From assembly GCA_005778115.1 (NCBI GenBank), contig SXKJ01000441.1, positions 1 through 43,437 on the forward strand: a DNA stretch of 43,437 nucleotides. The letters run 5' to 3'. Positions within the stretch are counted from its first letter, which is position 1. Every line of letters starts with the position of its first letter. Positions 4,229 to 37,631 of this stretch are shown one piece after another. The translations under genes and the position numbers were made by a program. The notes beneath the pieces are model-generated. The model made no database searches. It worked only from the letters and a program-made list of their open reading frames with translations, and was not told the DNA's origin. This DNA comes from Planctomyces sp. GTDB taxonomy: Bacteria > Planctomycetota > Planctomycetia > Planctomycetales > Planctomycetaceae.

Positions 4229-4666
4229 ATGCAGAAATCCAACATGACCTCCGCCGCCTGGCGGGAACTCGAAGCAATTGTGTCTCGCTTTGAAGAGGCG
4301 CTGCACGAACAACAGCGTCCCCAAATTCGAGACTTCCTCTCCACTGAGTATGTGGACCAAGTCTCACTGCTGCTGGAGTTGATCGCAGCAGAAGCCGAAC
4401 AACGCTGCCGGCTAGGGGAGCCGGTGACTTGTTCGGACTACGCGACGGCCTACGCCGACCTCCTCGCCGCGACTGCGGACCTGGACCGGCTGGCGGTCGT
4501 CGTCGCCGAAGCGTGCGAGACCATTTCGCGGTGTGTCCCGAACAAACTCGCGACCAAGACCAGCACTCGGACAAAACGTGTCGGCACACCGAAACCTCGC
4601 GATCACCACCAGTTGATCGAACCGCTTTCGCCGAGCCCCCCAAGTAGGTCAGCCTTTCCAGGCTGA
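4229..4666 (+). CDS. Orphan protein resembling the pre-kinase region of planctomycete kinases
   Basis: A 145-residue protein starting at ATG 4229 behind a strong AAGGAG (4216-4221). Residues 10-85 (WRELEAIVSRFEEAL, QIRDFL, LLLELIAAEAEQRCRLGEP, DYATAYADL) resemble the segment that usually precedes the kinase domain in planctomycete Ser/Thr kinases: a helical region followed by the motif ELI..D.E.R...GE.....DY. No kinase domain follows. The last seven residues are encoded by a GTAG palindrome, so the 3' end may have been cut or remodelled by that repeat. It lies downstream of, and co-directional with, the sigma factor gene, so an adaptor or anti-sigma-like role is possible but unproven. Residues after about 95 are Pro/Ser/Thr-rich and featureless. 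Confidence 0.6.
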   Translation: MQKSNMTSAAWRELEAIVSRFEEALHEQQRPQIRDFLSTEYVDQVSLLLELIAAEAEQRCRLGEPVTCSDYATAYADLLAATADLDRLAVVVAEACETISRCVPNKLATKTSTRTKRVGTPKPRDHHQLIEPLSPSPPSRSAFPG

Positions 4667-4725
4667 CCCGAATAACGATCGACGCGGTTTGGCCAATTCG
4701 AGTCAGGCTAGAAAGCCTGACCTAC
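4644..4725. repeat. Head-to-head pair of GTAG palindromes (units A and B)
   Basis: Unit A (4644-4667, plus) is GTAG followed by an 8-bp stem GTCAGCCT, loop TTCC, and the matching arm. Unit B (4702-4725, minus) is GTAG, stem GTCAGGCT, loop TTCT, matching arm. The stems differ at position 6 (C versus G) with the partner base also changed, so both remain perfect hairpins. Unit A overlaps the end of the upstream ORF. The remaining gap to the giant gene (4726-4913) shows no gene and no convincing sigma-70 promoter. Confidence 0.85.
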
Positions 4726-4913
4726 GTGTCACAAAACGCCGCGGAACGCAGGCAAAAACGGATTGCCGTCGCACCTGGTTCAATGTTTTTTTGACGCTAT
4801 CTACCGAACATTTCGGACGATACCGTGGTGCCGCTTTTCTGCCGCAATAACGACTTGCCCGCCCGTCGGTTCCGACGAGGCCGCAAATCGCAGTGAGTAA
4901 TGGAACTCAACCT

Positions 4914-5036
4914 ATGAAGTTTACGAACTGGCTCAGGAATTGGCGGCCCAATCGTCGGCGGTCGCAACGGATGGACCCGCGACGCTTGCAACGTTGCGTC
5001 GAACGACTGGAGCCACGTCTCGTGCTGACGTCGTCC
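4914..5036 (+). other. LEPR-type N-terminal signal region, out of frame with the protease
   Basis: In the frame starting at ATG 4914 the first 40 codons read as a basic, Arg-rich leader (NWRPNRRRSQRMDPRRLQR) followed by VERLEPRLVLTS. This matches the LEPR-x-LL type N-terminal motif seen on large planctomycete secreted proteins. The frame then runs to a stop at 5076-5078, while the protease continues in another frame from about 5033 (VPSGDWFSVVHP). One missing base in TCGTCCCC (5031-5038) accounts for it. The N-terminus of the open frame beginning at the TTG of 4940 is therefore probably not natural. Confidence 0.7.
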
Positions 5037-8000
5037 CCTCGGGCGATTGGTTCAGCGTCGTGCATCCGGCTGACCTGAGCAGCGGGACATTGCAAGGAGC
5101 CAGCGGAGGCAGCGGCACCGTTTCGTCAGACGCGATCGTCGGCACCTGGATCGTGCAGCTCACGCGCGAGTCGCTCGCTGGTGCGCAGGGACCGGCAGAA
5201 GTCGAAGCGTTGCTGGATGGCTTTGGTGCCGACTTCCAAGTCATCCACGGTCTCGGCCTGCCTGGCCAAGTCCTGGTGCAAGCGAGCCTCAACACGCGCG
5301 ATCTGGCCGAGTCCTCATTGCAGAACAACGCGCGCGTCTTCGCGTTTGAAGCGGACACCTACATCATCGGCCCGCAGGAGATGCCCGCGCAGCTTCTTCC
5401 CAACGATGCGAACTTCTCCGAACTGGCGGGGCTGGACAATCGAGGCCAGACCGGCGGAGCCGCCGACGCCGACATCGACGCGCCGGAAGCTTGGAACTTC
5501 GTGGACTCGAAACTTGCGCCCGATGCCACGCGGACGCAGGTCGGCAGCCGGACTATCGTCGCCGGTGTAATCGATTCGGGAATCGACTACCGGCATCCGG
5601 ACCTCTATCAAAACATCTGGATCAATCCCGGCGAGATTCCTGCCAGCGTCCGTGCCGCTTTGATCGACACCGACGGTGACGGCTTGATTTCGTTCGTCGA
5701 TCTCAATGCCGCGGCCAACGCCTCGCAAGTGACCGATTTGGCCAACGACGGCAATACGTTCATCGATGCGGAGGATTTGCTGGCTGATTTGCGCTGGACT
5801 CGATCGCGCGACGCAAACGGCATCGATCTCGGTCTGCGAGACGACGACGCCAACGGTTTCGTCAACGACCTCTTCGGTTGGGATTTTTCACAGATCTCCG
5901 AAAACTCTGCGACAACACAACTGGGCCTGGGTGACAACGACCCGTTCGATGAGCATCGTCACGGCACGCACGTCAGCGGCATTTTGGGTGCCAGCGGCAA
6001 CAACAACGTCGGTGTCACGGGACTCAATTGGACGGTCTCGCTGTTGCTGCTGCGATTCCTGGGAGCGGACAACAAAGGCTCGACCTCCAACGCCATCCGC
6101 GCGATCAACTACGCGACGATGATGCGTCAGCGTTACGAGGCGTCGCTCACCGATCCGGCGATCGTGGATGGCTCGGTCGGCGCGAACATCTCCGTCACGA
6201 ATAACAGTTGGGGCGGCTCGGCCAGCGGCGGAGCGTTACTGCGCGAAGCGATCGTCGCTCATGGTGCCGAGGACATCCTGTTTGTTGCAGCCGCCGGAAA
6301 CGGCAACGCGCTCGGCCAAGGGAACGACAACGATCTGCGGCCGTTCTTCCCGTCCAACTATGACTTGGAAAACGTCATCTCCGTCGCGGCCGTTGATGCG
6401 GCGGACGAGCTGGTGCCGTTCAGCAACTTCGGAGTCCGCTCGGTCGATCTCGCCGCGCCGGGACTCGGCATTTTGAGTACCGTCCCAAACGGTCAGTTTC
6501 GGCGTCTCAATGGCACGAGCATGGCCGCCCCGATGGTCAGCGGTGTCGCGACATTGATCGCCTCGATCAACCCCGACGCCACTGATGCCGAGATTCGCGA
6601 CGCCATCCTGTCGTCGGTCGATGTCGTCCCCACGCTGGCCAATCGCCTGGCCACGGGCGGAAGACTGAATGCGTTCGAGGCGGTCACCATCGACACCTTC
6701 CGCCCGCGCGTGACGGAAGTGTCTGACGTGACCGACCCCCCTCAAGGGCCGCTGGTCACCGACGCCGACCTCGGTGCGAGCATTCAAGAATTCTCCATCA
6801 CCTACACTGACAATGTCGCCCTCGACCTGCTGAGCATCGGCGCGGCCGATGTGCGTGTGACACGCCTCGAAACTGCGGAACAATTCTCCACGACGCTCCG
6901 GTTTGTGGAGCCGGGCAACAATCCCACGTCGCGATTTGTCGTGTATGCCTTCGCGCCGCCGGGCGGTAGTTGGGACGTCGGCGACAACGGCACCTATCAA
7001 ATCGACCTGGTCGATCTGCAAGTCCGCGACACCAGCGGCAACTTCGTCAGCGGCGGAACGCTCGGCACGTTCCGAGCCGCGATCTCGCGCGTCGGACAGA
7101 TCAACGTCGATAGCACCGTCGATTCACTCGATGCCGACCCCGGCGATGGGCAAGCGGTCGATCAACTCGGACGGCACACGCTGCGCGCCGCCATCATCGA
7201 AGCCAACGCCGACTTCGGCGAGAACACTATCGCGCTTCCCTCTGGTCTCTTTCGACTGACGATCGACGGAACCGGCGAAGACAGCGCGGAGTCCGGCGAT
7301 CTCGACATCGACGGCGTGTTGACGATCATCGGTTCCGCCGACGGCGGTACGATCATCGACGCGGCCGACCTCGACCGCATCTTCGACGTGCTCCCCGGAG
7401 CACGTCTGACTCTGCGAAACATCACGCTCCGAGGGGGCCTCGCTCCCATCGACGAGCAGCATGGCGGAGGCATTCGCAACGCCGGCACACTGGTCGTCGA
7501 GACCAGCACGCAGCAAGACAACGAAGCGGCCGGAGACGGCGGAGCGATCACCAACCTCGCCGGAGCCACCGCCACGCTGACCAACGTCACCCTCTCCGGC
7601 AACCGAGCCGATCGCGGGGCCGCCATCGCCAACAGCGGCTCACTGTTCCTCTTCAGTACAACCATCGCCGCCAACACCGCCACGAGCACCGCCGGCGGCA
7701 TCATCAACCTCGCTGGAGGCACGACCCGCGCGAAGAACACGCTCATCGCCACGAACACCGCACCGATTTCAATGACGACCGGCCCCGATCTCACCGGCGC
7801 GTTCGCCTCCGACGGCAACAATTTTATTGGCAACCCATCGTCCTCCACCGGCTTCAACCGCGACGTTGCCGGCAACAAGGTCGGCACGCCCGAACTGCCG
7901 CTCAATCCAAACCTCGGCCCGCTGGCCGACAACGAAGGTCCAACCTTCACTCACGAGCTGCTCCCCGGCAGCAAGGCCATCGACGCCGGCAATAACTCCG

Positions 8001-16883: not shown

Positions 16884-19800
16884 GGCAACGTCAGCGGCAG
16901 TGGCGGCGGAGTTTTCAACCAGGGAAATCTCACGTTGCTGAATGTCGGGCTGTCGGACAACGTGGCCACGGCGGGCGGCGCGGTGATGAATGAAGGGGTG
17001 GCCGATCTTCAAAATCTGTCTGTGCGGGGGAACTCGGCGACATCGAGCGGTGGTGGCATCAGCAATTCGGGGTCGGCGACGTTAGGGCTGGCATTCAGTT
17101 TCTTTGTCAACAATACGGCGGGGGGATTCGGCGGTGGATTGGAGAACACAGGGACGGCGACGATCTTCGACTCGCGGTTCTTTGAAAACTCGGCAAGCAG
17201 TACCAGCGGAGTCGGCGGTGGGCTGTATCACAACGGCGGCACGACGAGCGTGACATTCAGCGAACTGCGCGGCGGGGCCGCTCAAGATGGGGCCGGTTTG
17301 TACGCGATCGGCGGCACGCTCAATGTGTCCAACAGTCTGATCTGGGCGAGTGTCGCCAGCCGCAACGGCGGCGGCGCGTTCCTGGACAATCCCACTAGCG
17401 CGACCTTCATCAACACGACGTTCTCGGGAAACTCGGCGGTGAATGGCGGCGGATTGCACACGCTCAGCCAAGAACTCGCCACGCTGCGCAACGTGACGGT
17501 CACGGCCAATACGGCCAGCGGACTCGGCGGCGGCATTCGGGGGATCGGAGCGTCGCTCTTCAACACGATCGTGGCAGCCAACAACGGGCCGACCGATCCC
17601 GACATCAGCGGCATTATCTTTTCGGGAACGCACAACGTGATCGGCGTGCCGGCCTTCAACACCTTCACAGACGGCGCCAACGGAAACAAAGTCGGCTCGG
17701 TTGGCTCGCCACTGAATCCGCTGCTCGGCCCGCTGGCCGACAACGGCCCGTTCAGTTTCGATCCGATCAAGACCCACGCGCTGCTGGCAGGTAGCCCGGC
17801 GATCGACGGCGGCACCAACACCGGCGCGCCAGAGATTGATCAGCGCGGATTCGCTCGGCCGAAGGACGGTGACGGCAACACGACTGACGTGACCGACATC
17901 GGTGCCGTCGAAGCGTTCCTGGGGGCCATCACCGGTCTGGTCTATCACGATCGCGACGGCGACCGAGTCCGCGATCTGGACGGGACCGAACCGGTCTTGC
18001 GGGGCTTCACGGTCTACGCCGATCTCAACAACAACGGCCAACTCGACGAGGCCGAACCACGCACCGAGAGCAGCTTCTTCGACGATCTCTCAACGCCGGC
18101 CATCAACGAGATTGGGGCATACAAGCTCTTCGGTCTCGACCCAGGTACGGTCAAATTGCGTGGATTGCCGCCGCTCGGCTTTGAATCGACGACGACGTTT
18201 CCCCTCACGTTCACGCTCAGTCCCGGCCAGCAAATCAACAACGTGGACATCGGCAGCCGCTTCGTAAACGTGGCACCGGTGCTCGCCGACACCAACGTCT
18301 CCGCGCTTCTTCCGCTGGGAACCAGTGTCACTCAGGATCGCGGTGTGCTGGTGCAGCGGTTACTCGGCGGAGCGACCGATGTAAATGCGAACGCGCTGCA
18401 AGGGATCGCGGTCACGGCGGTGAATACGTCGCAAGGGACGTGGCAATTCAGTCTCGACGATGCGGCGAATTGGGAGGACATCACGGCGGTCGCGGGACTC
18501 GGCGATGCCAACGCACTGCTGCTGCCAGCCGATGTGCTGACACGCGTGCGGTTCCGGCCGAATGGCGGAGTCTCCGGCACGATCAACAACGCGCTGACGT
18601 TCCGCGCGTGGGATCGGACGGAAGGCTCGATCGGCGGCACGTTCGACGCGCGCGTGAACGGGCTCAACACCGCGTTCAGTTCAGCAACCGATTCGGCGAG
18701 CGTGACGCTGACCGCGACGTTCTTCGGCGGCGGTGGCGATGGGGTCAATTGGTCGGATGCGGCGAACTGGAGCAACAACACGCTGCCCGCGATCGGTGGC
18801 GATGTCTATCTCGACTTGGCTGGCGAATCAGCCACCGTGACGAACGGTCTGACGGTCAGAAACATTCAGAGCGAAGAAGCAATCACGGCCCAGACAGGAG
18901 CTTTGACCGTGACTGGACTCGGCCGTTTGTTTGGTCCGGTCGCGGTGCGCAATGGAGGAGTCGTTGAAGCCAATGGCTCTGTCGCGGATCTCTTCGTCGC
19001 GCAAACGGACAACTCAGTTCAGGGCTTGTTGACGGCCACGAGTGGCGGCCGTGCGACGTTTGCCGGCCTCACGGCAGCGACGACCAGTAACGTTCAAGGT
19101 TTCATCGCCGCCACGAACTCTGGCTCCGTACTCAATCTGCCGGACTTGGTGAGTGCGTCGGCGTCGAGCTTGGGACTGGGAATCAATGCGAATGGTGGAA
19201 CGCTCAATGCGCCAAGACTCGCGTCCCTCTCCGGGGAAATCCAACTCCATGCAAACAGTGGCGGTGTCATGAATCTGCCGGCGTTGCAATCCATCAACAA
19301 CGCCACGATTCTCGTGGACGCCAACACCACGCTTGACCTCCCGCAAGTGGCTTCGTTGAACAGCGTCGCTCTGCCCGTCTCCGGTACGAATGCGATCTTG
19401 GACTTGTCGTCCGCAACCACTTTGACGGCGACGAATGGACGAGGATCGAATTGGACTGTCAGCGGCACCGGAGCGCGGCTTGATTTTTCCGGGCTACAAA
19501 GTTTGTCCGGGGCTGAAGGGAATGAGATTCAGGCCAGCGTTTCCAGCGGTGGAGCACTCGACCTCTCGCAGGTGGATTCGATCACTGGGAATGTGGGCGT
19601 GTTCGTGGCCCATTTGAATTCGACGGTGAACCTGACGGACTTGGACCAGTTGCAGCGCGGCACGGACAATTCATCGCCAACACTGGAAGCGCTGATTGAC
19701 GGACAACTCCGGCTGAATCCAGGAACGACGACCGTGATAGACGATGCCTCGATCACAGGCTTCGACGACACCGTGTTGGTGGGCGCTTTGGAAGTGGCCG

Positions 19801-22800
19801 CCGGTGCGACGTTGCGTTCTGGAGGACTCGTGACCGGGCAACTGGTCAATCGTGGTGTTCTCGACTTGCAGGGAACGCTGATGCTCACGGGCAATTTCAC
19901 CCAAACGGCAACCGGCAAACTGCAAGTCGGTTCGTCCACGACCGCCTTCGAGCGGCTGGCGATTTCCGGCTCGGCAACGCTCGACGGTGAACTCGGCGTG
20001 TCGTCGCGCAACGGGCCGTTTGATGGCGCGGACGACTTTAACGCCGCCTCCAACTCCGTGCATTCGGTGGTGATGTTCGGTTCTCGAATCGGTGACTTCG
20101 CCACGCGCACGCAAGACCCCGCTGGCGGACATCGTTTCGTCTTCAGTTCGGACGCGAACAGCGTGGATCTGCTCACTCAAATCTTCATCGAGAATACCAG
20201 CGACGAAATTGATGCCGTCCCCGGAGACGGAATCGCGAAAGCGGCGTCGGGAGTGTCCTCCTTGCGATCCGCGATCATCGAAGCCAATGCATTCGCGGGT
20301 CACGACACCATCGTGCTGGCGGCGGGCACCTACACGCTGACCCTTGCCGGCACAAACGAGGAGGCGGCGGCTACGGGCGATCTCGATATCAAGGACGACG
20401 TGACGATCATCGGAGCCAGCGCGGGGTTGACGTTCATCGACGCGGCGGATTTGGATCGTGTGTTTGATGTGAAGGCGGGGAAGAAGCTGCGGCTGGAAGG
20501 GGTCACGGTGCGGAATGGGCATTTGGCTGGCGGAGCGGATGGTGGCGGTATCTTGAACTCCGGCACGCTGGAATTGGTGGGCGTGACGCTGGATAGCAAT
20601 GACGCGCTCAGTTCCGTCACGGCTCAAGGCGGAGCGATCTACAACCAAGGGGCGCTGACGATCACGGATTCGTCGTTGACGAATAACACATCGAACGGAG
20701 CGGGCGGTGGGCTGTTCAATCTGGGCGGTCACACGGCGACGATCAGCAACACGACCTTCGACAACAATACTTCGACGGCTCGCAGCGGCGGAGCCATCGA
20801 CAACGACGACAACGCCACGTTGACCGTCAGCAACAGCACGTTCACGAACAATTCCGCCTCGAACAATGGTGGCGCGATTACCAACCCCGGCGGCACGGCC
20901 ACGATCTCTAACAGCCTGTTCGATCAGAACTCGGTCTCGACCGGCACCAGCGGCGGTGGCGTGTCCAATTTGGGTGACGGCGTGATGACGATCACCGCGT
21001 CGGCGTTCACCCGGAACTCCGGCCAAGGCGGCTCCGCGATCCTGAACTCCAGTTCGGCGCAGCTCACGGTGACCGGCAGTTCCATTACGAACCACTCCAG
21101 CGCCGGTTCGACCGTGTCGAGCAGCAGCAGCGGAGTGTTCACGATCACCAACAGCACCATCTCCGGCAACACGACGTCGGCAGGCAGCACGCTCGGCACG
21201 ATCTCGCACTCGACTGGTTCTTTGGTGCTCATCAACAACACGATCACGAACAACGCGGTCGGCACCAGTACCAGTGCGGGCGGCGTCTTCATCAATGGCG
21301 GCACGGCGACGTTGCGAAACAATGTGCTGACGGCCACTGTGGGTAATCGCGCGGACGTCGTTGGCGATTTCATTTCGGAAGGGGGCAACTTCATCGGCAA
21401 CGTCGGCACGGCAACTGGAATTACGCAATCGACCGACCGCACCGGCACCAGCGGATCGCCGCTCAACGCGCTGCTTGGCCCGTTGGTGAATTACGGCGGT
21501 CCAGTGCGAACTGGGGCATTGCAAAGCGCGATTACATCGGGCAGCACGCAGCTCACGCTGACCAGCGCGAGCAAGTTTCCGAATCTGCCGTCGTTCACCA
21601 TCAAGATTGATTCGGAACAACTGCTGGTGACGGCGGTTTCGGGAACGACCATCACCGTGACTCGCGGAGTGAACGGCACGACGGCCGCTTCGCACAACGC
21701 CAACACGACGGTGACACTGTTGTCGGTTCCGAATATCACGACGCCCGCGTTTCATTCGCCGTTGGTTGGTAGCCCGTTGATCGAAGCGGGCGTGAACGGC
21801 GTCGGAGGCACGACCGACCAACGCGGAGCCGCTCGAACACTCGATGCCAATGGGGACGGCGTGGCGACCACGGATATCGGCGCGGTTGAGTTCTCATTCT
21901 TCGTGACCACGACGGCCGACACTCGCGACGCCAATCCCGGCGACGGCATCGCGGCGGATGCCAGCGGCCAGACGTCGCTCCGAGCAGCGATCATGGAAGC
22001 CAACGCGCTGGCGGAACACGACGTGATCTACGTCTCGTCAGGCACTTACACACTGACGCGTGCGGGAGCGAACGAGGAAGCCGCGGCGACGGGAGATCTC
22101 GACATCGTTGGCGAACTGACCCTTGTTGGCGAAGGTGCGATTACTTCGATCGTTGATGGCAATTCGATCGACCGCGTCTTCGAGCAACAATCCGGCAGTC
22201 GATTGGTTTTGCACGGCGTGACTGTTCGAAATGGCAAAACATCGGCGACGGAAATTGGCGGCGGATTATTTGCCAACGGGCTTTCGACGCACGTGATTGA
22301 CAGCCGCTTCGAGAACAACACTGCTTCGTCCGGCGGCGGGCTTGCGAGTTATGCGACGGGCAGCACAGTACTTGTCGAAGGCTCGACATTTACGGGCAAC
22401 ACAGCCAGCGGAAGTTCGATCTCCAGTATTCTGGACCAGATTGGCAGCGGCCTGTTTGCGGGGATCGGCACCGTCGACATTCGCGGTTCGACGTTCACGG
22501 GTAATAGCGGTGCTCGATCGCACGGCGCGGTTGGTGTTGGTGTGTCGGCGACCGTTTCGATCGTTGATTCGACTTTGGCGGACAACCTTTCCGACGCGTT
22601 GGTTATTGATGGAGGTCGAGTCACGGTCACTCGCTCAACGATCTCTGGCAACAACGGGACGAACAGTTCACCATCACGGGGCGGCGGCGGTATCACCGGA
22701 TTTGGTCCAGACCTGACGGTCATCGGCAGCACGATCTCCGGAAATCTGGGGGCGCAAGCCAATGGACTGCTGACTTTGGGCGGCACTGTTGTCATTCAAA

Positions 22801-25800
22801 ACTCGACCATCTCAAGTACTGGGACTTCGGTATTTGCAGACTACACAAACGGAGGCATGTCAGTGAGGAACTCGATCGTTGTTGGAACGATCGACGCACG
22901 CAGCACGTTGACATCGCTTGGGAACAACCTCATCAGCGCGTTCAATGGGGTCGGAGTTTCGAACGGAGTGAATGGCGACATCGTCGGAACGGTCGCGTCA
23001 CCTGTGGATGCGAAGCTCGGTGCGTTGGCGGACAACGGTGGGCCGACGAAGACACATGCGTTGCTGGCGACGAGTCCGGCAATTGATGCGGGGGAAGCGG
23101 ACGGCGTAATGCTGACCGATCAGCGCGGATTGCCGCGCAGCCTGGATGGCAATGACGACGGAATTCCGCGCCCGGATATCGGCGCGTTCGAGCGATTTGT
23201 CGGATTCCTGGTGAACAGCACGCTCGACACGGTGGATGCCAATCCCGGCGACGGTATCGCGGCGGACTCAATGGGCCGGACCACTCTGCGAGCGGCGATC
23301 ATGGAAGCCAACGCACATGCTGGGCGAGACAGCATTGTCGTGCCAGCGGGGACGTATCTCTTCACCTTGGCCGGAACGGTTGAGGATGCCGCCGCAACGG
23401 GCGATCTCGACATCACCGGCGACCTGACCATCACCGGACTCGGTGCGACGGCGACGATCATTGATGCCGCGGACCTCGACCGAATCTTTGATGTCAAGAA
23501 TGGAGCGACGCTGCGGCTGGAAGGAGTCACGCTGCGTAACGGACAAATCATTGGTGACGGTGGAGCGATCCTGAATTCTGGGACATTGGATCTGGTCGGA
23601 CTGACACTCGACAGCAATCTGGTGACTGGCTCGTTCGCGTCACAAGGGGGAGCCATCTATAACCAAGGCACGTTGACGATTGCGGACTCCGCATTGACGA
23701 ACAACGAAGCTCAAGGTGAAGGTGGTGCGCTGTTCAACGCCGACGGATTCACGGCCTCGATTACGAATTCGACTTTCAACAACAACCGCTCTCAGAACAG
23801 CAGCGGCGGAGCGATCGACAGCGGGATCAATTCCACGCTGAACATTGTGGGAAGCAGCTTCACGAACAATTCCGCGTTCGGCGGCGGAGCGATCTATAAC
23901 CGGAGTGGAACGGTCTCCATTGCCAGCAGCCTTTTTGGCGGCAACTCGTCACTGCTGGATGGCGGGGCATTGTTCAACGCAAGTGGCGGATCGCTGACGA
24001 TCGACCGCAGCACCTTGCAGAATAACTCGGCAACCACAGTCGCGGGGGGCCTCTACAACATCGGGCAAGTAACGATCACGCGCAGTACGTTCAAAGGCAA
24101 CACCGCCACTCAAGGAGCCGCCATCTCCAATAATGACGGAGCGGGCACGTTCGATGGGCTATTGACCATCTCGCAGTCCCTGTTTGTCGGAAACACCGCC
24201 ACGAACCAAGAAGGCGGAGCCATCGATAACAACGCCGGGGCGAAGCTGAACGCAGAGAACTCCACGTTTTCCGATAACTCCGCCACCGAAGGCGGCGCGA
24301 TTTTCAATAGCAACCTGGGGCAGGCGACACTGACGCATGTGACCATCACGCAGACCACGTCCGGGATCAATGGTGGCGGTCTTCATAACAACAGTTCCGC
24401 TAGCGAAGTTGTCGTGAAATCGTCCGTGATCGCCGGACTGCCGGGTGGTACGCCGGGCGCGGATCTCGTCGGCGCGTTCACGTCGCTTGGCCACAACTTC
24501 ACCGGCGACAAGGGGACGGCAACCGGTTTTGCAAATGCCGTCAACGGCGATCAGGTCGGCACCAGCGCTGCGCGGCTCAATCCGCAGCTTGGCCCACTCG
24601 CCAGCAACGGCGGACCCACACAAACTCACGTGCCGTTGCGAGGCAGTCCGCTGATCGAGGCTGGCGTGAACGGTGTCGGTGGAGCGACCGATCAGCGCGG
24701 TGCGGGACGTGAGCTCGATGGCAACGGCGATGGCATTGCGACCGCCGACATCGGCGCGGTTGAGTTCGCGTTCTTCGTGACGACGACCGCGGACACCGTT
24801 GATGCGAATCCCGGCGACGGACTCGCTCGCGACGCCAACGGTCAGACATCACTGCGAGCGGCGATCATGGAAGCCAACGCGCTGGCGGGATACGACGTGA
24901 TCTCGGTGCCGGCGGGGACGTATCGCATCACTCGGCTGACCGGAGGCAACTCGGGCGATTTCGACATCAACAGTTCGCTGTCGATTGTCGGTGCGGGTGC
25001 CGCCGCGACGATCATTGACGCGCGGCCCAGTGCGGGCGGAACTGCATCGACGCGGGTGTTTGACATCTCGGCGAGCGCGGTGGTGACGCTCGCAGGCTTG
25101 ACTGTCTCCGGGGGCCTTGTGGATGGCTTCGTCAACGGCGGCGGCATCACGAACGCCGGTGATGTGACTTTGCGCTCCGTGGTTGTTCGTGATAACCGCT
25201 CGACGTTTCCCAATGGTGCCGGAGCTTTGGGCGGGGGTGTTTATTCTTCCGGCTCCCTGCAAATCTTTGACAGTGAGTTCCGAGACAATCTGGCTGGGAA
25301 TGGCGGAGGCGTCTATGCCGTTGGAGCGCTGGAAGTCCGCGACAGCTTGTTTACGCGGAACAATGCCCTGCGAAGCGGTGGAGGATCGGGAGGTGGACTC
25401 GCAGCCGACTTCGCGGTGACCATCGTCAATTCGGTATTCACTCAAAATATGGCGACCCGATACGGCGGCGGTGCCGCCATTGGAGGTCCATCTGGCTCGC
25501 AGGACGGGGCAATCCGCACGATTCAGAACTCAACCTTCGACGGAAACACGGCGTTGGATGGCGGTGGTGGATTGTTGATTGGAAATCCGATCGCCACGGT
25601 GTCGTCCAGCACGTTTTCCAACAATGTGACGGGGTCACATACGGGACCGCTTGGCGGCGGCGGAATCCTCGTGACCGATGGCACGCTGCTGGCCACGAAC
25701 ATAACCGTCTCTGGGAATTCAACAGGCTCGTCGGCGCCGTTCGGTGGCGGGCTGCGCGTCTTCCGGGGTGTGGCCACCGTGGATCACGCCACCATCACCG

Positions 25801-28800
25801 GTAACACGGGTGGCGGCGTCGAAGCGGTGAGTGGAGGAACGGTCAATCTCCGCAACAGCATCGTGACGGGAAACTCCGCAACATCGAATCCCAACGTTTC
25901 GGGGACAGTGACGTCGGGCGGTCATAACTTGATCGGCGTCGGCAATGGCGCGACGGGCTTCACCCACGGAGTCAACGGCGACCAAGTTGGGACATCCGCG
26001 ACTCCCCTGAATGCGCAGTTCGGCCTGCTGGCTGACAACGGCGGCGTGACCAAGACGCATGCGCTGCTCGCCATGAGTCCAGCGATTGATGCGGGGGCAA
26101 TGCTCGGAACGGAGTCCCAAGCGACGATCCGCGATCAACGCGGTGTCCCGCGTCCGCAAGGGGCGGCTCCCGATATCGGCGCGTTTGAAGTCGGTGCGAA
26201 TCTGCTGTTCGTCAACAGCACGGCGGACAGCGTCGATGCGAGTCCCGGCGATGGGATTGTGGCAGATGCTCAGGGCCGAGCGACGCTGCGGGCGGCGATC
26301 ATGGAATCGAACACACTGAGTGGCGTGCAGACGATCGTGATTCCTGCGGGGACGTATCGGCTGGCTGCGGGTGCGGATGAAGCGATCGAGATCGCTGGCG
26401 ATCTCGATGTCTTAGCAGAGGCGATTTTGATCGGGGACGGTTCTGGTGAAACGATCGTCGAAGGCAATGGGGATCGCGTATTCGATCTCCATGCGTCAGC
26501 GGGGGCCGTGACGATGAGGGGGCTGCAAGTCCGGGGCGGCGGTGACAGCGAGACCGGCGCGGGGGGCGGCATTCGAGCACTCACCTACGTCACGCTGCGC
26601 GACCTCGTGATCACCGGCAATCAAGGGGGGCTCGGCGGAGGGCTGTATGTCGGTGCTGACGGTGGATTACTCGAACATGTGGAGATCTCTCAGAACTCCG
26701 GGCCGGGTGGTGGTGCGGGAGTGTTCTTCGACAGCCTGACCTTTGAGAGTGAATTTCCGCAAAAGCTGCTACGCATCGAGGACTCGTGGATTCACGACAA
26801 TGCGACGCTCAACGGATTAGGTGGCGGCCTGCACATTCGGGGCGGACGTTTGGAATTGGTTCGCACCCGTGTCTCGAGTAATTCGGCAACGGAGGGTGGC
26901 GGACTGTTTGTCAGCGGTATTGGCAATACCTCGGCAGAGACTTTTGTCGTCCAGGACAGCTTGTTCGACCAGAACTCCGCCAGTGAGCGTGGCGGTGCGA
27001 TCTACAATTTCGATTCGGGTGACACCAGCGTCGTTGTCGAGTTGGTCAATACGACGCTCGCCGGAAACTCCGCCGTCCTGAATGGCGGCGCGGTCCATGC
27101 CGTGGGCGGCCGCGTGGATCTGACGAACGTCACGGTGGCGGAGAACTCAACGCTCGGCGATGGTGGCGGACTCTCCTGGCTTGGCAATGGCGGCTACCGC
27201 TTGCTCAATACCGTCGTGACAGACAATTCCGCCGGTACGCCGAGCACATCGAATCTCTCGGCGAACGCCTTTGTGTCGCTGGGGCACAATTTCATCAGCG
27301 CGCTGGGGAACGCAACCGGCTTCGCGAATGGCGTCAACGGCGATCTGGTGGGGACCACTCTGAATCCGCTCGATGCGAAGCTCGGTCCCTTGTCGGACAA
27401 CGGCGGGCCAACGCTGACAATGTTGCCGAGGCTCGGCAGTCCGTTGATCGATGCGGGAGACAACACCGGTGCGTCGGCGACCGATCAACGTGGCGCGGCG
27501 CGCGTGGTCGATGGGAACAACGACAGCACGGCCACCATCGACATCGGCGCGGTCGAACGCGTTGAAGGCGCGAATCGCGGTCGGGTCTTCTATGACGCCA
27601 ACGGAAACGCTCTCACGGATGCCGGCGATCGTGGACTCGCGGGGCGGACTGTGTTCCTCGACGCAGATGAAGACGGCGTGTTGGATACGAGCGAACTCCG
27701 CACGGTCACGCTGGCCGACAATTTGGCGACGAGCGGGATCGACGAAGCGGGCACCTACGAATTTGAGATCGTTGCGCCGGGAGACATTGATGTTCGCACT
27801 CTGATCGTGGCCGGGGAGCAATTCACGACTCCAAGCGGCGGCGTTCACGAAGCGACCGTCGTGTCCGGGCAATTGTCATTTGCGGACTTCGGCCTGGTTG
27901 TTCCGTTGACGATCACGGACCTGTCGTCGAATCCGGCATCGGTCTCTGGCATCACAGAAGGGGATGCGGGCCAGGCGATCCTGACGTTCCGAGCGGAGCT
28001 GCCGGCGGCGGCTCCGGTGGATGTTTCCTTTTTGGCCACGATCACTGGCGGCGCGGCGACCGTGGGAACAGATGTCGTCGAGCGAGCGGTACCGCAGCGG
28101 ACGATCGTGATTACGGCCGGGCAGACCAGCGTGGATTGGAGCTATGCGGTCCCGGCGGACTCGACGGACGAATTCGACGAGACGATTGTCGTCACGATTT
28201 CCAATGTGACGAACGCATTGCCGCCGGCCAGCGCGATGATCACTGGGGTGATTCTCGACAACGATGCTCCGCCGACCGTTTCGATTGGAGACGCGCAACT
28301 CGTCGAGGGTGATCGTGGTCCGAATACGCTGATGTTTCCGGTCACGTTGTCGGCTCCCAGTGGCAAGCCGGTTTCGGTGACGTTCACGGTCGCGGCGGGC
28401 ACAGCGTCCGCGGGCGTGGATTTCGTCGCTGCCGCGCAGCCGGTCATGGTCAGCTTTGCTCCGGGTGTCACATCGGCGACAGCGCTCGTGAACCTGGTGA
28501 CGGACTTCACCGATGAAGCGGATGAAACGCTGACGGTCACGTTGGGAGAGCCGATCAACGTCACGATCGCCGATGGACAGGCCACGGGAACGATCCTCGA
28601 CGATGACATCAACCTGACGGTCACGACAGACGCAGACAAAATTGATCAGACGGCTGGCGACGGCGTGGTCAACACGGGCGTGGCCAACGAGATCACGTTG
28701 CGTGCGGCGGTGATGACGGCCAATCAACTTGCCGGTGACGACGAGATTGTCCTGCCGGCCGGGACGTTCACGTTCACGCTGGGGACACGCTCGGAAGATG

Positions 28801-30100
28801 CGGCGGCTTCGGGTGATCTCGATGTGACCAGCGGCTATCTGCGGATTCGGGGGACAGGGACGATAGAGAACCCGTCGATCATCGACGCGGCGGATCTCGA
28901 CCGAGTGTTTCATGTCCGCAACGGCGCGACGCTCGAATTGATCAACGTGACGCTGCGCAACGGAGACCTCGGAGATTCTCAGGACGGCGGCGCGATCGCG
29001 GTCGATGCTTCGGGAACGTTGATTCTGACGCAGACGAAACTTGAGAATCACACCGCGCGCACGGGCGGAGCGTTGTTCTTGCTGGGGAACTCGACGCTGA
29101 CGGTGTCTCAGGCAACGTTCACCGGTAACACGGCGTCGGGAGCGACATCTCCGGGTGGCGCGATCGCCACATCGGGATCGGGGATTGTGCTCAACGTGGC
29201 GGACAGTACGTTCCGTAACAACACGGCGGTCACCGGTGGCGGTGCGATCTTCAGCACGGGAACGTTGACCGTGACTGACAGCACGTTTGAATCGAATCGC
29301 GCGGAGGCGGTCGGTTCGAGCCAGTCGTCGCGTGGCGGTGCGATCTTCAGCAGTTCGACGACGATGCTGTCGATCGAGTCGAGCACGTTCTCGCAGAATT
29401 CCTCGATCTCGCGTGGCAGCGGGCAATCGACGGGTGGTGCGGTCGCGGCGGATACCAGTACGACGGTCACGATCACGTCGAGCACCTTTGAACGGAACGT
29501 GGCGACGGCGGCGGCGGGCGCGACCGGCACGATACGAGTCGGCGGCGGATTGTGGACACGCGGCACGGCGACGATCACCAACTCGACGTTCTCGGCCAAC
29601 ACGGCGGACTTCGACGGCGGCGGGATGTTCGATCAGACCGGCACACTGTCGCTCAATCATGTCACGATCGCGCGGAATGTCTCTGGCCGAAACGGCGGTG
29701 GTGTGGCTGTCGCGATCGGCACGGCTAACATCAAGGACTCGTTGATCGCCACGAACACGGCGACCACCAGCAACCCCGACGTGCATGGCACGTTCGTCTC
29801 GCAGGGACACAACCTGATCGGCAATCGTGGAACGGTGACGAGCTTCGTTGCCGGACAAAACGGCGATCTGGTGGGCGAGTCGGGAGCGGTCATCGATCCG
29901 AGGTTGCTCGATCTGGCAGACAACGGCGGGCCGACTAAGACACACGCGCTGGAGGTACGACAGATCGGCGTGTCCGTCGTCTTCAGTCCGGCGGTCGATG
30001 CGGGCGATAACTCCGGCGCTCCGCAGTTCGATCAACGTGGTTTGCCGCGCGATGTGGACGGTCGCGATCTCGGTACGGCCACGCCCGATATCGGCGCGTA
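16550..30100 (+). repeat. Array of seven CSLREA/beta-helix/choice-of-anchor-Q modules
   Basis: Module starts near 16550, 20180, 21895, 23205, 24770, 26205 and 28610 share the phrase [27 protein letters not shown] with variations. Modules 3 and 5 are closest to each other in the helix region, and the boundaries into modules 4 and 6 are almost identical, so the array has a two-module period of about 3 kb. Confidence 0.75.
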
Positions 30101-30641
30101 TGAGTTGCCGCGTAACCGGATGCCATCGCTCGCGGCACAGACTTTCAACGTTGCCGAAAACACGTCGATGGGCAGTCTGATCGGTCGTGTGGTCTTCAGT
30201 GACCTGGATGGGAATCTGCGCTCGCCCGCGCTCTCGATCACGGAGGGCGATCAAGACCACTTCGAGTTCATCGCCGCCACTGGCGACCTGAAGGTCAAAA
30301 CGCCGCTCGATTTTGAATTCAAAGCGTCGTACTCCCTGAAGATTCGCGCGACTGACACCGGCGTTTCTCTGACGGACACCGCCGACGATCTGTTTCGCGA
30401 GGCATTCATCACGATCAACGTCACAAACACCAACGAGCAACCGGAGTTGGTGGGGAGCGGTCTCGATAACCGATCGCGACGTGATGGAGATGAAACCGAG
30501 ACCGTTGATCTGAGACCGCTCTTCGTGGACCCGGACAACGGCGACACGCTGACCTTTACGCTGGTGGGCAACACCAATCCGGAACTCGTCGATGTGCGGC
30601 TGGTCAATGGAGGTGTGGCAGTGCGCGAGAGCAGAGGCTGA
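16884..30641 (+). CDS. Giant gene piece 7: CSLREA/beta-helix modules, Calx-beta and cadherin-like domains (about 4,580 residues)
   Basis: Largest intact frame in the window; first ATG 16935. Order by nucleotide: beta-helix and choice-of-anchor-Q end of module 2 (to 17920); SdrD-like domain (17930-18260); Ig/cadherin-like region (18260-18720); an unusual beta-solenoid-like region (18720-20170); CSLREA modules 3 to 7 starting near 20180, 21895, 23205, 24770 and 26205, each with a (T/S)LR(A/S)AIMEANA-type motif, GGAIYN-type beta-helix rungs and a [16 protein letters not shown] end; SdrD-like domain (27570-27890); two Calx-beta domains (27900-28610); module 8 (28610-30100); cadherin-like domain (30110-30450). 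The last dozen residues (VRESRG) look foreign to the domain and a hairpin straddles the stop, so the frame is probably truncated. Such proteins are exported and probably fibrous; no function is established. Confidence 0.8.
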
Positions 30642-30652: not shown

Positions 30653-30757
30653 GTCACCGAGGGCGAACTTCGCAAATCCGGCGCTGGTGCGATGGGCACC
30701 AACGTCCTGCAAACGGGGAATGACGATTCGCACGCTGACGAGGCTGGATGGAAAGGT

Positions 30758-30781: not shown

Positions 30782-30817
30782 GTTGCCGTCGATTGGGACT
30801 TTGTTCTGACCGTTTCG

Positions 30818-35100: not shown

Positions 35101-35997
35101 ACGGATCGCATTGTCGAAGCGGGATTCAACTTCACGATCAGTTCCGTCTCGCCGCTCGTGAATGGTGTGTCGACCGGTCATGGTTCATTGACCGGCAACG
35201 GCAACGACATCCTGCTTAACAACAACATTGAGGAAGCCTCGCTCACCGGAACGACTTCCGCCAACACATTGACGGCGATGAACTTTTCGGGAGCCGTCAC
35301 GCTCAATGGCCTGAGTGGCGATGACAAACTCTTCGGCGGCAGTGGCAACGATCAACTCAATGGCGGCGATGGCAAGGATTCGCTGGAAGGCAACGGAGGT
35401 GGCGACACGCTCTTCGGGAACGGCGGCATTGATACGTTGAACGGTGGTGCCGGAGCCGACTCGCTCGACGGCGGCAACGACAACGACAGCCTCGGTGGCC
35501 AAGCTGACCAAGACACCCTCATCGGAGGTGCCGGACAAGACACGTTGATCGGTGGCGCTGGAGCCGACACGTTGAGCGGCGGAGAAGGCAATGACATTCT
35601 GGATGGTCAGGCCGATCAGGACTCGCTCATTGGTGATGATGGTCGCGACATATTGATCGGCGGCTCTGAGTCCGACACGCTTCTGGGAGGACTCGGTGAG
35701 GATGTCCTGATTGGCGAGAGCTTCATGGTCAATGCGACCGTGCAGCAACGAACGGCGGCTTTCAACGCCATCCTCGCCGAATGGACGTCGAGTCGCACTT
35801 ACGAGCAGCGAGACGCGAACCTTCGGCTAGGCGGAGGCTCCGTCGGCACAACGCGGCTGTATGCCAGCACTCTGCAAAACGACAACGCGATCGACCGCCT
35901 CTTCGGAGAAAACGCCCGCGACTTGTTCTTCGGATTGGATAGTGAAACTCCCGATCGGATCACCACTATTGGAGCCGACCAGGAATTCCCCCGCTAA
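32170..35997 (+). CDS. 3' piece of a large surface protein: VCBS, cadherin/Ig-like and RTX repeats
   Basis: The frame is open from before 32050, but that part is antisense to the DUF1501 gene. Convincing protein begins about 32320 with a VCBS-type unit (VSLLRNDGTANF, DIDGNGTPDLIIADKD). Two to three cadherin/Ig-like tandem domains follow (about 32590-33530: TPEDIAEEVTLAGADRD, YTPDENYRGPDSFTF). From about 33700 to 35720 the protein is dense with RTX calcium-binding repeats of the type GGAGNDLLNGSGGRD, separated by beta linkers ending in SLTG. The C-terminus (AFNAILAEWTSSRTYEQR, then GENARDLFFGLD) looks natural. There is no signal peptide, ribosome site or good start, so this is probably the severed end of the giant gene or of a similar one. 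Calcium-dependent folding outside the cell is expected. Confidence 0.75.
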   Translation, partial: DRAPEWEVGRFDSGNAADCVLSGRRDGTIGSEVSRSSKNGQETHQASASDTVTPDVSLLRNDGTANFLSPESAGVLNESSGALRFSIAARDIDGNGTPDLIIADKDSERISVLRNTLQPGFVTVRVVESMDVTGVSFTLETLNQPPSFTKGANQLVDEDAGTRTITNWATSISSGGSNEPAQAVDFVVTNDNENLFSVPPAISANGTLTYTTAENANGIATVTVRIHDDGGSANGGKDTSEPQSFTITVTALNDQPVANAQSASTPEDIAEEVTLAGADRDPEVTQSLTFSIVTPPSHGTLGTLDASTGRVTYTPDENYRGPDSFTFRVTDDTLAGGAALDSEVATVSLTVTPENDRPVATAQQVTTDQDAAISFSLTGVDGDAGENQALTFAIASQPQRGTLSGFNPATGAVTYTPNPGVIEPDSFTFTVTDDASAGGSALTSLPATVNLTVNRLFDVVFTGSGSNPLTATTPDGRLQITGTGVLIQVNQAVVPNTNNVESLFIRSLTINGAGGKDNLNLSGLSRSLFPRLREIVLSGNAGDDVIIGTSFDSNNVVERISGGAGNDLLNGSGGRDRLVETQTGTSALNVSLKAVTGSLTRLTLSGFGTDTIEAFEEMSLTGAGGADKIMVDLFPGNVTLIGGLGNDTLIGGALADSLNGGVGNDSLTGNGGDDQLLGDDPLVAGSGIDTITESDLANTLASNFVLTPISLLGRGSDTLSSIEKVKLTTSNVGSRIDASAYGGDTTLTGGNGNDLLIGGSGTDSIVGGKGNDTITGGLGKDTLTGGTDAGTADTLIENVSGTVTITATTLTTVISGPTTTVIEALSGFDAVSLTGGSGSDTINASALLFAVTLLGGGGSDTLTGGSSGDRLDGQSGDDVLTGGLGADTISGGDGVDRLVEVSKATVATNFTLTDFQESDAQVTGFGIAAVPETLSSIESASLTGGSNNDTLTAAGFTRGSVTLTGEANNDQFDGGAGTDRIVEAGFNFTISSVSPLVNGVSTGHGSLTGNGNDILLNNNIEEASLTGTTSANTLTAMNFSGAVTLNGLSGDDKLFGGSGNDQLNGGDGKDSLEGNGGGDTLFGNGGIDTLNGGAGADSLDGGNDNDSLGGQADQDTLIGGAGQDTLIGGAGADTLSGGEGNDILDGQADQDSLIGDDGRDILIGGSESDTLLGGLGEDVLIGESFMVNATVQQRTAAFNAILAEWTSSRTYEQRDANLRLGGGSVGTTRLYASTLQNDNAIDRLFGENARDLFFGLDSETPDRITTIGADQEFPR

Positions 35998-36018
35998 GAA
36001 CGTCGAACCGAAGAGAAT

Positions 36019-36044
36019 CTCAGTCGCGGGAGCGACTGAGCTAC
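36019..36044 (-). repeat. Single GTAG palindrome
   Basis: On the minus strand: GTAG, 9-bp stem CTCAGTCGC, loop TCCC, matching arm. It has the same layout as the pairs at 4644-4725 and 37576-37631: GTAG flank and an all-pyrimidine four-base loop. It lies 22 bases after the RTX piece ends and may act as a terminator or REP-like element. Confidence 0.75.
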
Positions 36045-36178
36045 ATAGGCGATTCGCTCCCTCGACTCGCATTCCGAACGCCGATCAGAGTTCATTCTGC
36101 GAGAAGCTCTCAATCTGTTGGCCCCGCCTCCCATCGGATTTTGGGACACCCCCCGGCGGTGTGTGGAACGTGTCATGC

Positions 36179-36209
36179 ACCGGGGATATGCTCCCCGCCC
36201 GACCGGGGA
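36179..36209 (+). promoter_or_regulatory. Mutually exclusive hairpins upstream of the oxidoreductase
   Basis: ACCGGGGA occurs at 36179-36186 and 36202-36209, with TCCCCG between them at 36192-36197. The middle segment can pair with either copy (6 bp, loops of 5 or 6). If the region is transcribed this could be a switch; it may also be chance in GC-rich DNA. The rest of 35998-36273 holds only the GTAG unit and the ribosome site. Confidence 0.3.
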
Positions 36210-36273
36210 CGTGCTTCAGATTCGCGAACGCTGTCCTGTCGGTTCGGCGAGCACCACGATCAGGAGAGCAGTC

Positions 36274-37572
36274 ATGTCGAACAAGGGAACGCAGCTTCCT
36301 CGGCGTCAGTTTTTGAAGACGGCAGTTTCGGCGGCCAGCGCCGCCGTGATGGCACCCACGATCATTCCCGCCTCTGCCTTGGGGCTGGAGGGAACGGTGG
36401 CTCCCAGCGAGCGGATCATTGTCGGCGGCATCGGCATCGGAAACCGCGGGCTGTATGACCTCGGCTGTTTCCTGGAGCAAAGCGACATTCGGTTCGCGGC
36501 CGTGTGCGACGTGAAAGAAGCTCGCCGCACGTTGGTCAAGAAGATGGTTGATGAGAAGTACGGCACTACGCTCTGCGACATGCACCGCGACTATCGAGAC
36601 CTGCTCGACCGCAGCGACATCGACGCGGTGTTGATCGCGACCGGCCCGAACTGGCACTGCACGATGTCGATGGCCGCCGCGAAGGCCGGCAAGGACATCT
36701 ACTGCGAAAAGCCCTGCACGAAGAACATCGAACAGAGCCTGATCCTGCGGGACACGATCAAGCGCACCGCGCGAATTTTTCAGGCGGGAACCCAACGTCG
36801 AAACCTGCCGCACTTTGCGTTCGCGTGTGAGTTGGCTCGCACCGGAAAGCTCGGAAAGATGAAACGAGTGTTTGCACATCCGGCCGGGATGACCTCGATG
36901 TTGAGTGGTTGGCTGCCGGCTGAACCGGAACCGGAGAAGGAAGTCATCGATTATGACAATTACCTCGGCCCGGCCGCGTGGCGACCGTTCAACAAGGCAC
37001 TGCTCGCCGGCTTCCACTTTGAAAAGGGAGGCGGATTCATCGGCGCGTTCGGCGGCGGCGGCGTCCTCGAATGGGGTTCGCACTGTGTGGACCTCTGCCA
37101 GTGGGCGATGGGAGATTGCGAACCTCCCATTGAATACAACCCGCCGAAAGACGGGCACCTTGTCGCGAAGTATGCCAGCGGTGCCGAACTGATCTTCCGC
37201 GAAAAGGATTGGATTCCGCTTGGCTCATGCCCCGTGCGATTCGAGGGAGAGACCGGCTGGGTCGAAGCGGGTGACAGCGGCAAGATGGTGCTCAGCTCAC
37301 CGGAACTGCTCGCCGGCCGCACGGTCCTGGAGATTGGCGGCTATCCGGCCACGTTCCATGTGCGAGACTTCCTCGACTGCGTGAAAACTCGCTCGCAACC
37401 GAAGACGAACGCGCTCGCAGCCTGCAACGCTCACATCGCGTGCCACGCGGCCAACGTCGCGCTCTATCTCAACCGGCAAGTCAAATACGACAACAAAACC
37501 AACACGTTCATCGACGACGAACCCGCCAACCGCATGCGCTCCGAAGCGCTCCGCGAACCCTGGCGTCTGTAG
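36274..37572 (+). CDS. Tat-exported Gfo/Idh/MocA family oxidoreductase
   Basis: NAD(P)-dependent oxidoreductase, probably acting on a sugar or cyclitol outside the cytoplasm. From ATG 36274, behind AGGAG (36262-36266), it has 432 residues, normal for planctomycete members. A twin-arginine signal is clear (RRQFLKTA at 10-17, then a hydrophobic stretch). The Rossmann motif GGIGIGNRG lies at 51-59. The family motif EKP is at 145-147 (YCEKPCTKN), with GPNWHC before it at about 124-129. The C-terminal half has the usual alpha/beta dimer domain (GGGVLEWGSHCVDLCQWA). The frame stays open upstream to 36118, but that extension covers the hairpins and lacks similarity. The gene stands alone; a repeat pair separates it from the next gene. 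Substrate not predictable. Confidence 0.9.
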   Translation: MSNKGTQLPRRQFLKTAVSAASAAVMAPTIIPASALGLEGTVAPSERIIVGGIGIGNRGLYDLGCFLEQSDIRFAAVCDVKEARRTLVKKMVDEKYGTTLCDMHRDYRDLLDRSDIDAVLIATGPNWHCTMSMAAAKAGKDIYCEKPCTKNIEQSLILRDTIKRTARIFQAGTQRRNLPHFAFACELARTGKLGKMKRVFAHPAGMTSMLSGWLPAEPEPEKEVIDYDNYLGPAAWRPFNKALLAGFHFEKGGGFIGAFGGGGVLEWGSHCVDLCQWAMGDCEPPIEYNPPKDGHLVAKYASGAELIFREKDWIPLGSCPVRFEGETGWVEAGDSGKMVLSSPELLAGRTVLEIGGYPATFHVRDFLDCVKTRSQPKTNALAACNAHIACHAANVALYLNRQVKYDNKTNTFIDDEPANRMRSEALREPWRL

Positions 37573-37575
37573 TTC

Positions 37576-37631
37576 GTAGGACGGGCACTCCTGCCCGTCT
37601 CCGTCATGACGGCCAAGAGTGGCCGTCCTAC
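37576..37631. repeat. Head-to-head pair of GTAG palindromes (units D and E)
   Basis: Unit D (37576-37599, plus): GTAG, stem GACGGGCA, loop CTCC, matching arm. Unit E (37608-37631, minus): GTAG, stem GACGGCCA, loop CTCT, matching arm. The units again differ at stem position 6 with the partner base changed to match. They fill the gap between the oxidoreductase stop and the HEAT-repeat gene. Confidence 0.85.

Follow-up and report, generated by a model that had tools for sequence, protein, structure and literature searches.

GTAG palindromes in a Planctomyces contig: REP and REPIN units of three families, a candidate cognate RAYT and the unlike ends of one family

Introduction

Contig SXKJ01000441.1 of a Planctomyces sp. 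(assembly GCA_005778115.1), analysed here over its whole length of 43,437 nucleotides (hereafter the window), contains five short palindromes with a GTAG foot, four of which form two head-to-head pairs. The locus raises the question of what these elements are, what keeps their stems paired, and why the two stems of each pair differ at one and the same position. A reading of the sequence alone had taken them to be one family of elements like REPs (repetitive extragenic palindromes) or BIMEs (bacterial interspersed mosaic elements) under structural selection, possibly mobilised by a REP-associated tyrosine transposase (RAYT) encoded elsewhere. We propose that they are very probably REP and REPIN (REP doublet forming hairpin) units of a planctomycete, comprising two head-to-head REPINs and one single REP of three families, with dispersal by cognate RAYTs and an end difference that is inherited. 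The assignment to REPs and REPINs with a RAYT is well supported and the kind is already known, planctomycetes included; the window is ordinary for its kind.

The wider interest lies in the unlike ends. The passages on REP dimers in Di Nocera et al. (2013; PMC3733652) describe the heterodimer state as frequent and, as of 2013, as having no obvious explanation. The clade analysed here offers cognate RAYTs, natural dimers of both kinds, like and unlike, within a single family, genomes in which the RAYT is broken or undetected, and natural variants of the foot, and these contrasts open the heterodimer question to comparative tests and to simple cleavage assays in vitro.

Results

Five hairpins of three families

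The units of the window and the spacer of the first pair are as follows.

4644..4667, plus strand: F1 REP unit of the C6 type, with GTAG foot, stem GTCAGCCT and loop TTCC
4668..4701, no strand: F1 REPIN spacer, 34 bp and polar; its CCGA.. end adjoins the C6 unit and its ..CCAATTCGA end the G6 unit
4702..4725, minus strand: F1 REP unit of the G6 type, with GTAG foot, stem GTCAGGCT and loop TTCT
36019..36044, minus strand: single REP of the third family, with GTAG foot, 9-bp stem CTCAGTCGC and loop TCCC
37576..37599, plus strand: F2 REP unit, with GTAG foot, stem GACGGGCA and loop CTCC
37608..37631, minus strand: F2 REP unit, with GTAG foot, stem GACGGCCA and loop CTCT

All five hairpins are present with the layout first described for them: the stems are perfect over 8 or 9 bp, the four-base loops are entirely pyrimidine, and in both pairs the sole difference between the two stems is at position 6, where the partner base is altered to match. 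They lie far above chance, since GTAG hairpins with a stem of at least 7 and a loop of 3-6 number five in the window and average 0.03, with a maximum of 1, in 100 dinucleotide shuffles. GTAG ranks first among the 256 tetramer feet of the window, and the second, TAGG, is a shifted reading of the same units. Every unit has the form that defines a GTAG REP, a hairpin with a stem of at least 7 and a loop of 2-5 that is immediately preceded, on its 5' side, by a GT[AG]G foot; the F1 pair has that of a REPIN, two inverted REPs and a spacer copied as a unit, and the 36019 unit stands alone. The stem bulge or mismatch of the E. coli type (subclass 2.2) was found in none of the five stems, and searching the window against Rfam and for tRNAs produced no match.

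The five elements had been supposed to form one family; judged by their genome-wide copy sets they form three, the two pairs, each with stems of its own, and the single unit. The source genome comprises 7.43 Mb in 515 contigs, of which the window is one, and one gene of the window has its closest named relatives in planctomycete metagenome-assembled genomes (MAGs), some called Planctomyces or Schlesneria, whose isolate names suggest a fresh-water origin. The whole genome was searched with GTCAGSCT-TTCY for F1 (4644/4702) and GACGGSCA-CTCY for F2 (37576/37608); the copy number of the third family (CTCAGTCGC-TCCC, 36019) is judged from a genome sample of 60 systematic stretches (746,233 bases), which holds more copies of CTCAGTCGC-TCCC and of GCGAGTCGC-TCCC. 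F1 has 256 matches with up to three mismatches (131 forward and 125 reverse; reversed control 0) and F2 138 with up to two (65 and 73; control 0 in this genome), so that a genome-wide scan, the check proposed with the sequence-only reading, gives a large excess. In the genome sample 78 GTAG hairpins with a stem of at least 7 put this foot at the top of the 256 (median foot 5), the runners-up, TAGC and TAGG, appear to be GTAG units read with a shift, and by our own grouping the 78 belong to at least eight stem-loop families.

The units are concentrated between genes: 43 of 83 are intergenic, compared with 132 of 1949 random points, according to crude calls of open reading frames (ORFs) by a simple longest-first rule, which covers 91% of the sequence and makes many of the "inside" units doubtful. 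Their median distance past a stop codon is 12 bases (n = 38). In the window, a Gfo/Idh-type gene ends at 37572 and the 37576 unit begins 3 bases past its stop, and the 36019 unit lies 21 bases past a gene whose product has repeats of the RTX and cadherin-like kinds, counted from its stop. By the same crude calls, the TAG within the foot is itself the stop codon of the preceding frame in 13 of the 38 intergenic units. A CT cleavage dinucleotide, looked for beside 64 exact F1 units, gave no clear site; GTAG is preceded by C in 53% of them and by G in 3%.

A RAYT gene that ends at an F1 REP

Y1 proteins number 16 in the genome by PF01797 and 12 by the NCBI REP-transposase model. Sorted by the subclass motifs tabulated in PMC6006769, nine are class 1.2-like TnpA proteins (one with an internal stop), and the rest include RAYT-like and class 3-like proteins. 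A gene on contig C185 encodes, in an open frame, a RAYT-type Y1 HUH protein whose motifs NHIH, WQ and YIENNP agree with those of subclass 2.4 (NH[IFV]H, WQ, YIxNNP). The HxH, WQ, Y and NP columns are invariant in the RAYT alignment that includes it, and a profile of ten RAYTs has its best match in the PDB to TnpAREP (4er8, E 1.2e-9). The protein thus has the HUH motif, the catalytic tyrosine and the family profile of a RAYT, with a score against NF047646 (cut-off 80 bits) of 81.1 in the genome search and, on the ORF, of 79.4, which is 0.6 bits short.

The C185 gene ends at an F1 REP, the GTAG of which provides its stop codon, and a second, slightly altered unit comes next. Hence a RAYT-type gene is indeed encoded elsewhere in the genome, and the REP/BIME-like identity first suggested is borne out as REP/REPIN by copy number, layout and a RAYT gene ending at the same REP. 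The C185 gene is thus associated with F1, and its protein is by analogy with published enzymes the putative cognate RAYT of F1. Among 120 genomes of the family, searched for relatives of the C185 protein, orthologues occur in G114, G057 and G047 with identities of 89, 64 and 57% in the search (90, 63 and 56% in the alignment). All three have F1-type REPs on both sides, those of G047 with a GTAC foot, and so form REPtrons, in which a RAYT is flanked by the same REP; in the source genome F1 has this arrangement on the 3' side.

REPtrons of the other two families are found in relatives. In G049 two F2 REPINs, each with ends that differ at position 6, flank a RAYT on contig C337, and in G142 a RAYT frame with two stops (contig C27) is enclosed by GCGAGTCGC and CTCAGTCGC hairpins with loop TCCT, which stand on both sides, with two third-family units between the frame's two matched pieces (L279, ~149-1000). 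A footed hairpin stands at the edge of 22 of the 30 RAYT loci fetched in the search of the 120 genomes, compared with 170 of 1930 random places of the source genome's sample, and footed hairpins stand on both sides of 17 of the 30 loci, compared with 5 of the 1930 places. As a separate observation, a family with a GTGG foot (GGCAGGTT-TTC) flanks a RAYT on both sides in G143 (L275, 1401-2381) and is also present in the source genome (L103, L148, L150).

Unlike ends and the polarity of F1

The source genome has 29 exact F1 head-to-head pairs with spacers of 16-46 bases, of which 22 are unlike at position 6 (p 0.008), and for spacers of 32-34 bases the proportion is 20 of 24 (p 0.0015). Orienting the 21 unlike pairs whose spacers have at least 28 bases by their C unit gives the spacers one common polarity, and 0 of 5000 random flips did as well. 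Since spacer polarity follows the C unit, the copied element carries the C unit at one fixed end and the G unit at its opposite end. The F1 end difference is therefore a fixed left/right polarity of the copied unit, and this polarity is explained by descent alone. Unlike pairs also account for 35 of the 50 F1 pairs listed for G114, a count that is not independent of the first because some G114 pairs share spacers with those of the source genome, and, with all families of the genome sample taken together, for 18 of its 27 head-to-head pairs.

That unlike pairing might be a rule, or a sign of ongoing structural selection, is not supported by other pair sets. F2 rules out a universal rule, as 12 of its 13 exact pairs in the source genome (spacers 10-28 bases) are like, the window pair being the sole unlike one, and in G049 15 of 17 F1 pairs are GG. 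G008 has no exact F1 pair with a spacer of 16-46 bases, and one of the two loci fetched from it holds a GG pair whose units lie 131 bases apart. Among relatives, 100 loci yielded 31 distinct head-to-head pairs, 12 unlike and 19 like, with differing positions scattered from 1 to 8. We had considered position 6 as the optimal break point, as by hand reckoning for an 8-bp stem and a 4-base loop a difference there leaves the shortest longest duplex, and this was dropped because the relatives' pairs differ at positions 1-8 and 19 of 31 do not differ at all.

Two further observations concern stem positions. Most of the G049 F2 units listed (e.g. C337:14678-15556) start with GATGG opposite a 3' arm ending in CCGTC, so that a T-G mismatch recurs at stem position 3. 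Three stretches of the genome sample (L101, L118, L127) carry a family whose two hairpins, CCGAACTC-GTGA and CCGAAGTC-GTGA, are separated by 1 base and in which position 6 is unlike in all three head-to-head pairs seen; in the L127 pair one loop is ATGA and the second stem differs at position 2 too.

Pairing energies

A REPIN can fold as one long hairpin or as a two-hairpin "clover", and Bertels and Rainey suggested that RAYTs are unlikely to recognise the long form and likely to recognise the clover (PMC3116915). With DNA parameters, the energy of the long form minus that of the clover is +0.5 kcal/mol for the F1 pair of the window, which favours the clover, and -1.2 kcal/mol for its F2 pair. 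The mean is -9.8 kcal/mol for seven like F1 pairs vs -2.6 for 22 unlike ones (p 0.0002), so that unlikeness at position 6 costs the F1 long hairpin ~7 kcal/mol of preference; 12 like F2 pairs range from -6.3 to -13.3 kcal/mol. Given these energies, the mechanical part of the sequence-only reading, in which pairing between the units is weakened and local folding kept intact, is right for both pairs of the window.

Decay and compensation in single stems

The sequence-only reading had seen compensatory base-pair changes in the stems. We compared F1 units with up to two mismatches, a limit that tends to hide compensated pairs, between the sample of the source genome (n = 32) and G138, a MAG of the same genus that is 91% complete (n = 70). 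The source genome has far more exact units (19 of 32 vs 8 of 70, p 1e-6) and fully paired stems (22 of 32 vs 17 of 70, p 3e-5), and position 6 lacks a Watson-Crick pair in 0 of 32 vs 16 of 70. Within this limit, G138 shows 53 one-sided changes at stem positions other than 6, along with one compensated and one two-sided unpaired, and the source genome shows 11 one-sided, none compensated and two two-sided unpaired. Compensation therefore does not serve as a contrast between the two, 11 vs 0 resembling 53 vs 1; the two differ in the proportions of exact units and of fully paired stems. With up to four mismatches, position 6 is paired in 36 of 36 F1-like units of the source genome's sample, and six compensated pairs appear, from three units of a GACGG subfamily.

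Compensatory change thus holds at position 6, where the partner bases match; outside it, in units with up to two mismatches, stem changes are nearly all one-sided. Single stems look not to be repaired site by site in either genome, and the F1 population of the source genome looks younger or renewed by copying. Copying, more than selection at the level of the host, probably keeps the stems paired, and the compensatory pattern is real but mainly reflects an inherited end difference and RAYT-dependent copying.

Turnover behind the Gfo/Idh-type gene

Of 17 related loci (L047-L063), 16 were read across the gap that follows the Gfo/Idh-type gene. The F2 pair is present in five related MAGs (L047, L049, L052, L054 and L062, with point changes in the last three), and the unlike pair of the window therefore probably predates their split. 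L050 has a different, slightly imperfect GTAG hairpin; L048, L051, L053 and L056 have, as judged by eye, longer inverted-repeat elements; L058 has another hairpin; the gaps of L055, L057 and L059 are 19-77 bases without such a repeat; and those of L061 and L063 are long. The gap after 37572 thus holds different repeats in L048, L050, L051, L053 and L056, as if it were a favoured landing place.

Discussion

The following mechanism would account for these observations. REPs and REPINs would be non-autonomous elements, and a cognate RAYT, a Y1 HUH transposase, would recognise the GTAG foot and the single-stranded hairpin and copy the two-ended unit into intergenic sites at a low rate. The unlike F1 stems would stem from a single polar master element, one from its left end and one from its right, passed on by copying, and each end would stay a perfect local hairpin because copying depends on the RAYT and degenerate copies are probably not copied. 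The computed energies place the clover near the long hairpin when the ends differ, which may ease recognition by the RAYT; such heterology is not required, since like pairs are also abundant.

A reading in terms of the host would make the units RNA or DNA hairpins, such as terminators or stabilisers of mRNA 3' ends, with pairing kept by host selection and true compensatory mutations at each site. Consistent with it are the short distance to stop codons, with 13 of 38 units using the TAG of the foot as stop, the pairing of position 6 in all 36 F1-like sample units, and the retention of the 37576 pair in five related MAGs. Yet a terminator needs neither a GTAG foot nor a head-to-head layout, the cognate RAYT is flanked by the same units, and one and the same site is occupied by differing repeats across relatives. 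G138, in which no RAYT of the clade was detected, has fully paired stems in just 17 of its 70 units, and outside position 6 one-sided changes outnumber compensated ones by 53 to 1 there and by 11 to 0 in the source genome, ratios obtained under a mismatch limit that disfavours compensated pairs. We regard the host reading as very unlikely. Deletion derivatives or hairpin ends of elements of the IS200/IS605 type, served by class 1 TnpA, are extremely improbable. The genome does encode the nine class 1.2-like TnpA proteins, four of them between inverted footed hairpins, but these hairpins have other stems (CCCCAGGCT, CCCAGGGC), none of which is in the list of 78 sample units, and the gene at which the F1 units lie is of the RAYT type, class 2. 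The four TnpA genes concerned (L001:1413-2049, L005:1407-2002, L006:1336-1940 and L008:1336-1941) have hairpins with matching outer feet, GTAG, TCAG, ATAG and AAAG, and the table of PMC6006769 gives the class 1.2 subclass as without REPs.

The unlike ends might instead be selected against pairing between the units, which would give rise to long hairpins, cruciforms and cleavage by SbcCD, such that unlikeness is the favoured state. Protection from SbcCD is proposed in PMC3733652, the lower preference for the long hairpin in unlike F1 pairs is of the expected kind (a mean of -2.6 rather than -9.8, a difference of ~7 kcal/mol), and unlike pairs predominate in F1 of the source genome (22/29), in F1 of G114 (35/50 listed) and among the sample pairs of all families (18/27). 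Against this stand the like pairs of F2 (12/13, with short spacers), of F1 in G049 (15/17 GG) and of the relatives (19/31); the scatter of the differing positions, which are not where an inter-unit duplex would be split best; and the polarity of the F1 spacer, which descent alone explains. Selection against inter-unit pairing is hence unlikely, and the inheritance of a polar end difference by copying is preferred.

Several observations weigh against dispersal of the three families by cognate RAYTs. Transposition of F1, F2 or the third family by a RAYT is proposed from sequence comparisons. The C185 RAYT has REPs on its 3' side only, within the stretch tested, and the RAYTs beside F2 and the third family were located in other genomes only. 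F1 is present in 14 of the 120 family genomes, four of which have a C185 orthologue and one of which (G083) has broken pieces only, and F1 matches occur without an orthologue in G008 (228), G049 (149) and G056 (37). In six of seven further genomes of the same genus there are 56-199 F1 units, which weakens a simple presence/absence link between F1 RAYT and F1 REPs; of the RAYT matches fetched, the best in G139, G142 and G143 share 36, 29 and 38% identity with the C185 protein, and G138 and G141 gave no match to two RAYT queries, neither of which was the C185 protein, although the same queries recovered the C185 gene. Decay is not uniform either: G083 still has 80 exact F1 pairs with a broken RAYT, and G139 has at least 34 pattern-exact F1 units. 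These two genomes may have lost their RAYT recently or use another one. Within the 120 genomes alone, the presence/absence link had looked strong: a match to the C185 protein of at least 57% identity over at least 129 residues occurs in four of the 14 F1 genomes and in none of the 106 others, in which the best matches are ~33% over ~200 residues or 49-55% over ~72. The G139 RAYT sits between GACGGCCT-TTCC units. In G083, which has 319 F1 matches, one locus (L198, ~1210-1683) holds remnants of the F1 RAYT and an F1 REP within an open frame.

The system resembles known ones closely. The GTAG REP families of Di Nocera et al., as described in the relevant passages of PMC3733652, share the GTAG foot, stems of 6-9 bp, short loops and head-to-head dimers, have sub-families with alternative complementary stem bases that form homo- and heterodimers, and include several families in one planctomycete, R. 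baltica being named; R. baltica together with REP palindromes gave nothing in a search of the open-licence literature. Added here are the tie between the F1 heterodimer state and spacer polarity, the cognate RAYT with its orthologues and the decay of stems in a relative without a detected RAYT; in addition, the fourth base of the foot is changed in relatives (GTAC), whereas the degeneracy described in that paper concerns the second and third positions. The P. fluorescens REPINs (Bertels and Rainey, 2011; PMC3116915) are likewise described as two inverted REPs with a less conserved spacer copied as a unit, with long hairpin and clover both possible and a RAYT associated. They differ from the units here, in which the stems are perfect over 8-9 bp and the F1 ends differ at position 6, and the pseudomonad RAYTs are placed in subclass 2.5 in the table of PMC6006769 whereas that of F1 is 2.4-like. 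E. coli REPs and BIMEs with TnpAREP (PMC8266576; PDB 4er8) have the same foot, a Y1 HUH enzyme of the same family and two unlike REPs in inverse orientation, but the passages on E. coli REPs report a conserved stem bulge needed for activity, in contrast to the perfect stems here. The subclass 2.4 REPtrons of PMC6006769 agree in the NH[IFV]H, WQ and YIxNNP motifs and in REPs flanking the gene; REPs inside the gene, also described there, were seen here in one RAYT frame, the one with stops in G142, and the hosts here are planctomycetes.

A side finding concerns the foot itself. Natural REPs with a GTAC foot occur in relatives, some of them sharing one foot tail to tail. In G047, dimers of GTCAGCCT and GTCCGGCT overlap in a single, self-complementary GTAC (L197:1387-1430, L202:2295-2338 and elsewhere; ~17 copies by our reading), one of them directly behind the RAYT gene, and GTAC-foot hairpins stand at further RAYT loci in G112 (L192/L196) and G157 (L239), of the GACGGGCA-TTCC and GACGGACT-TCC types. 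The passages on GTAC in PMC8266576 deal with engineered feet, the main texts of PMC3733652 and PMC6006769 have no match to the word, and a search of the open-licence literature for GTAC with REP and RAYT found nothing. A rather unlikely extension of our proposal is that the unlikeness of REPIN ends acts as a dial of mobility, mobile heterodimer masters alternating with dormant homodimers, and that the change from GTAG to GTAC was followed by the RAYTs. Unlike ends would then hold the two-hairpin form that a RAYT can read and like ends would lock a long, silent hairpin, and the self-complementary foot would give two tail-to-tail REPs one guide for both strands.

Apart from the REP units, an open reading frame of 4568 codons occupies 16935-30641 of the window.

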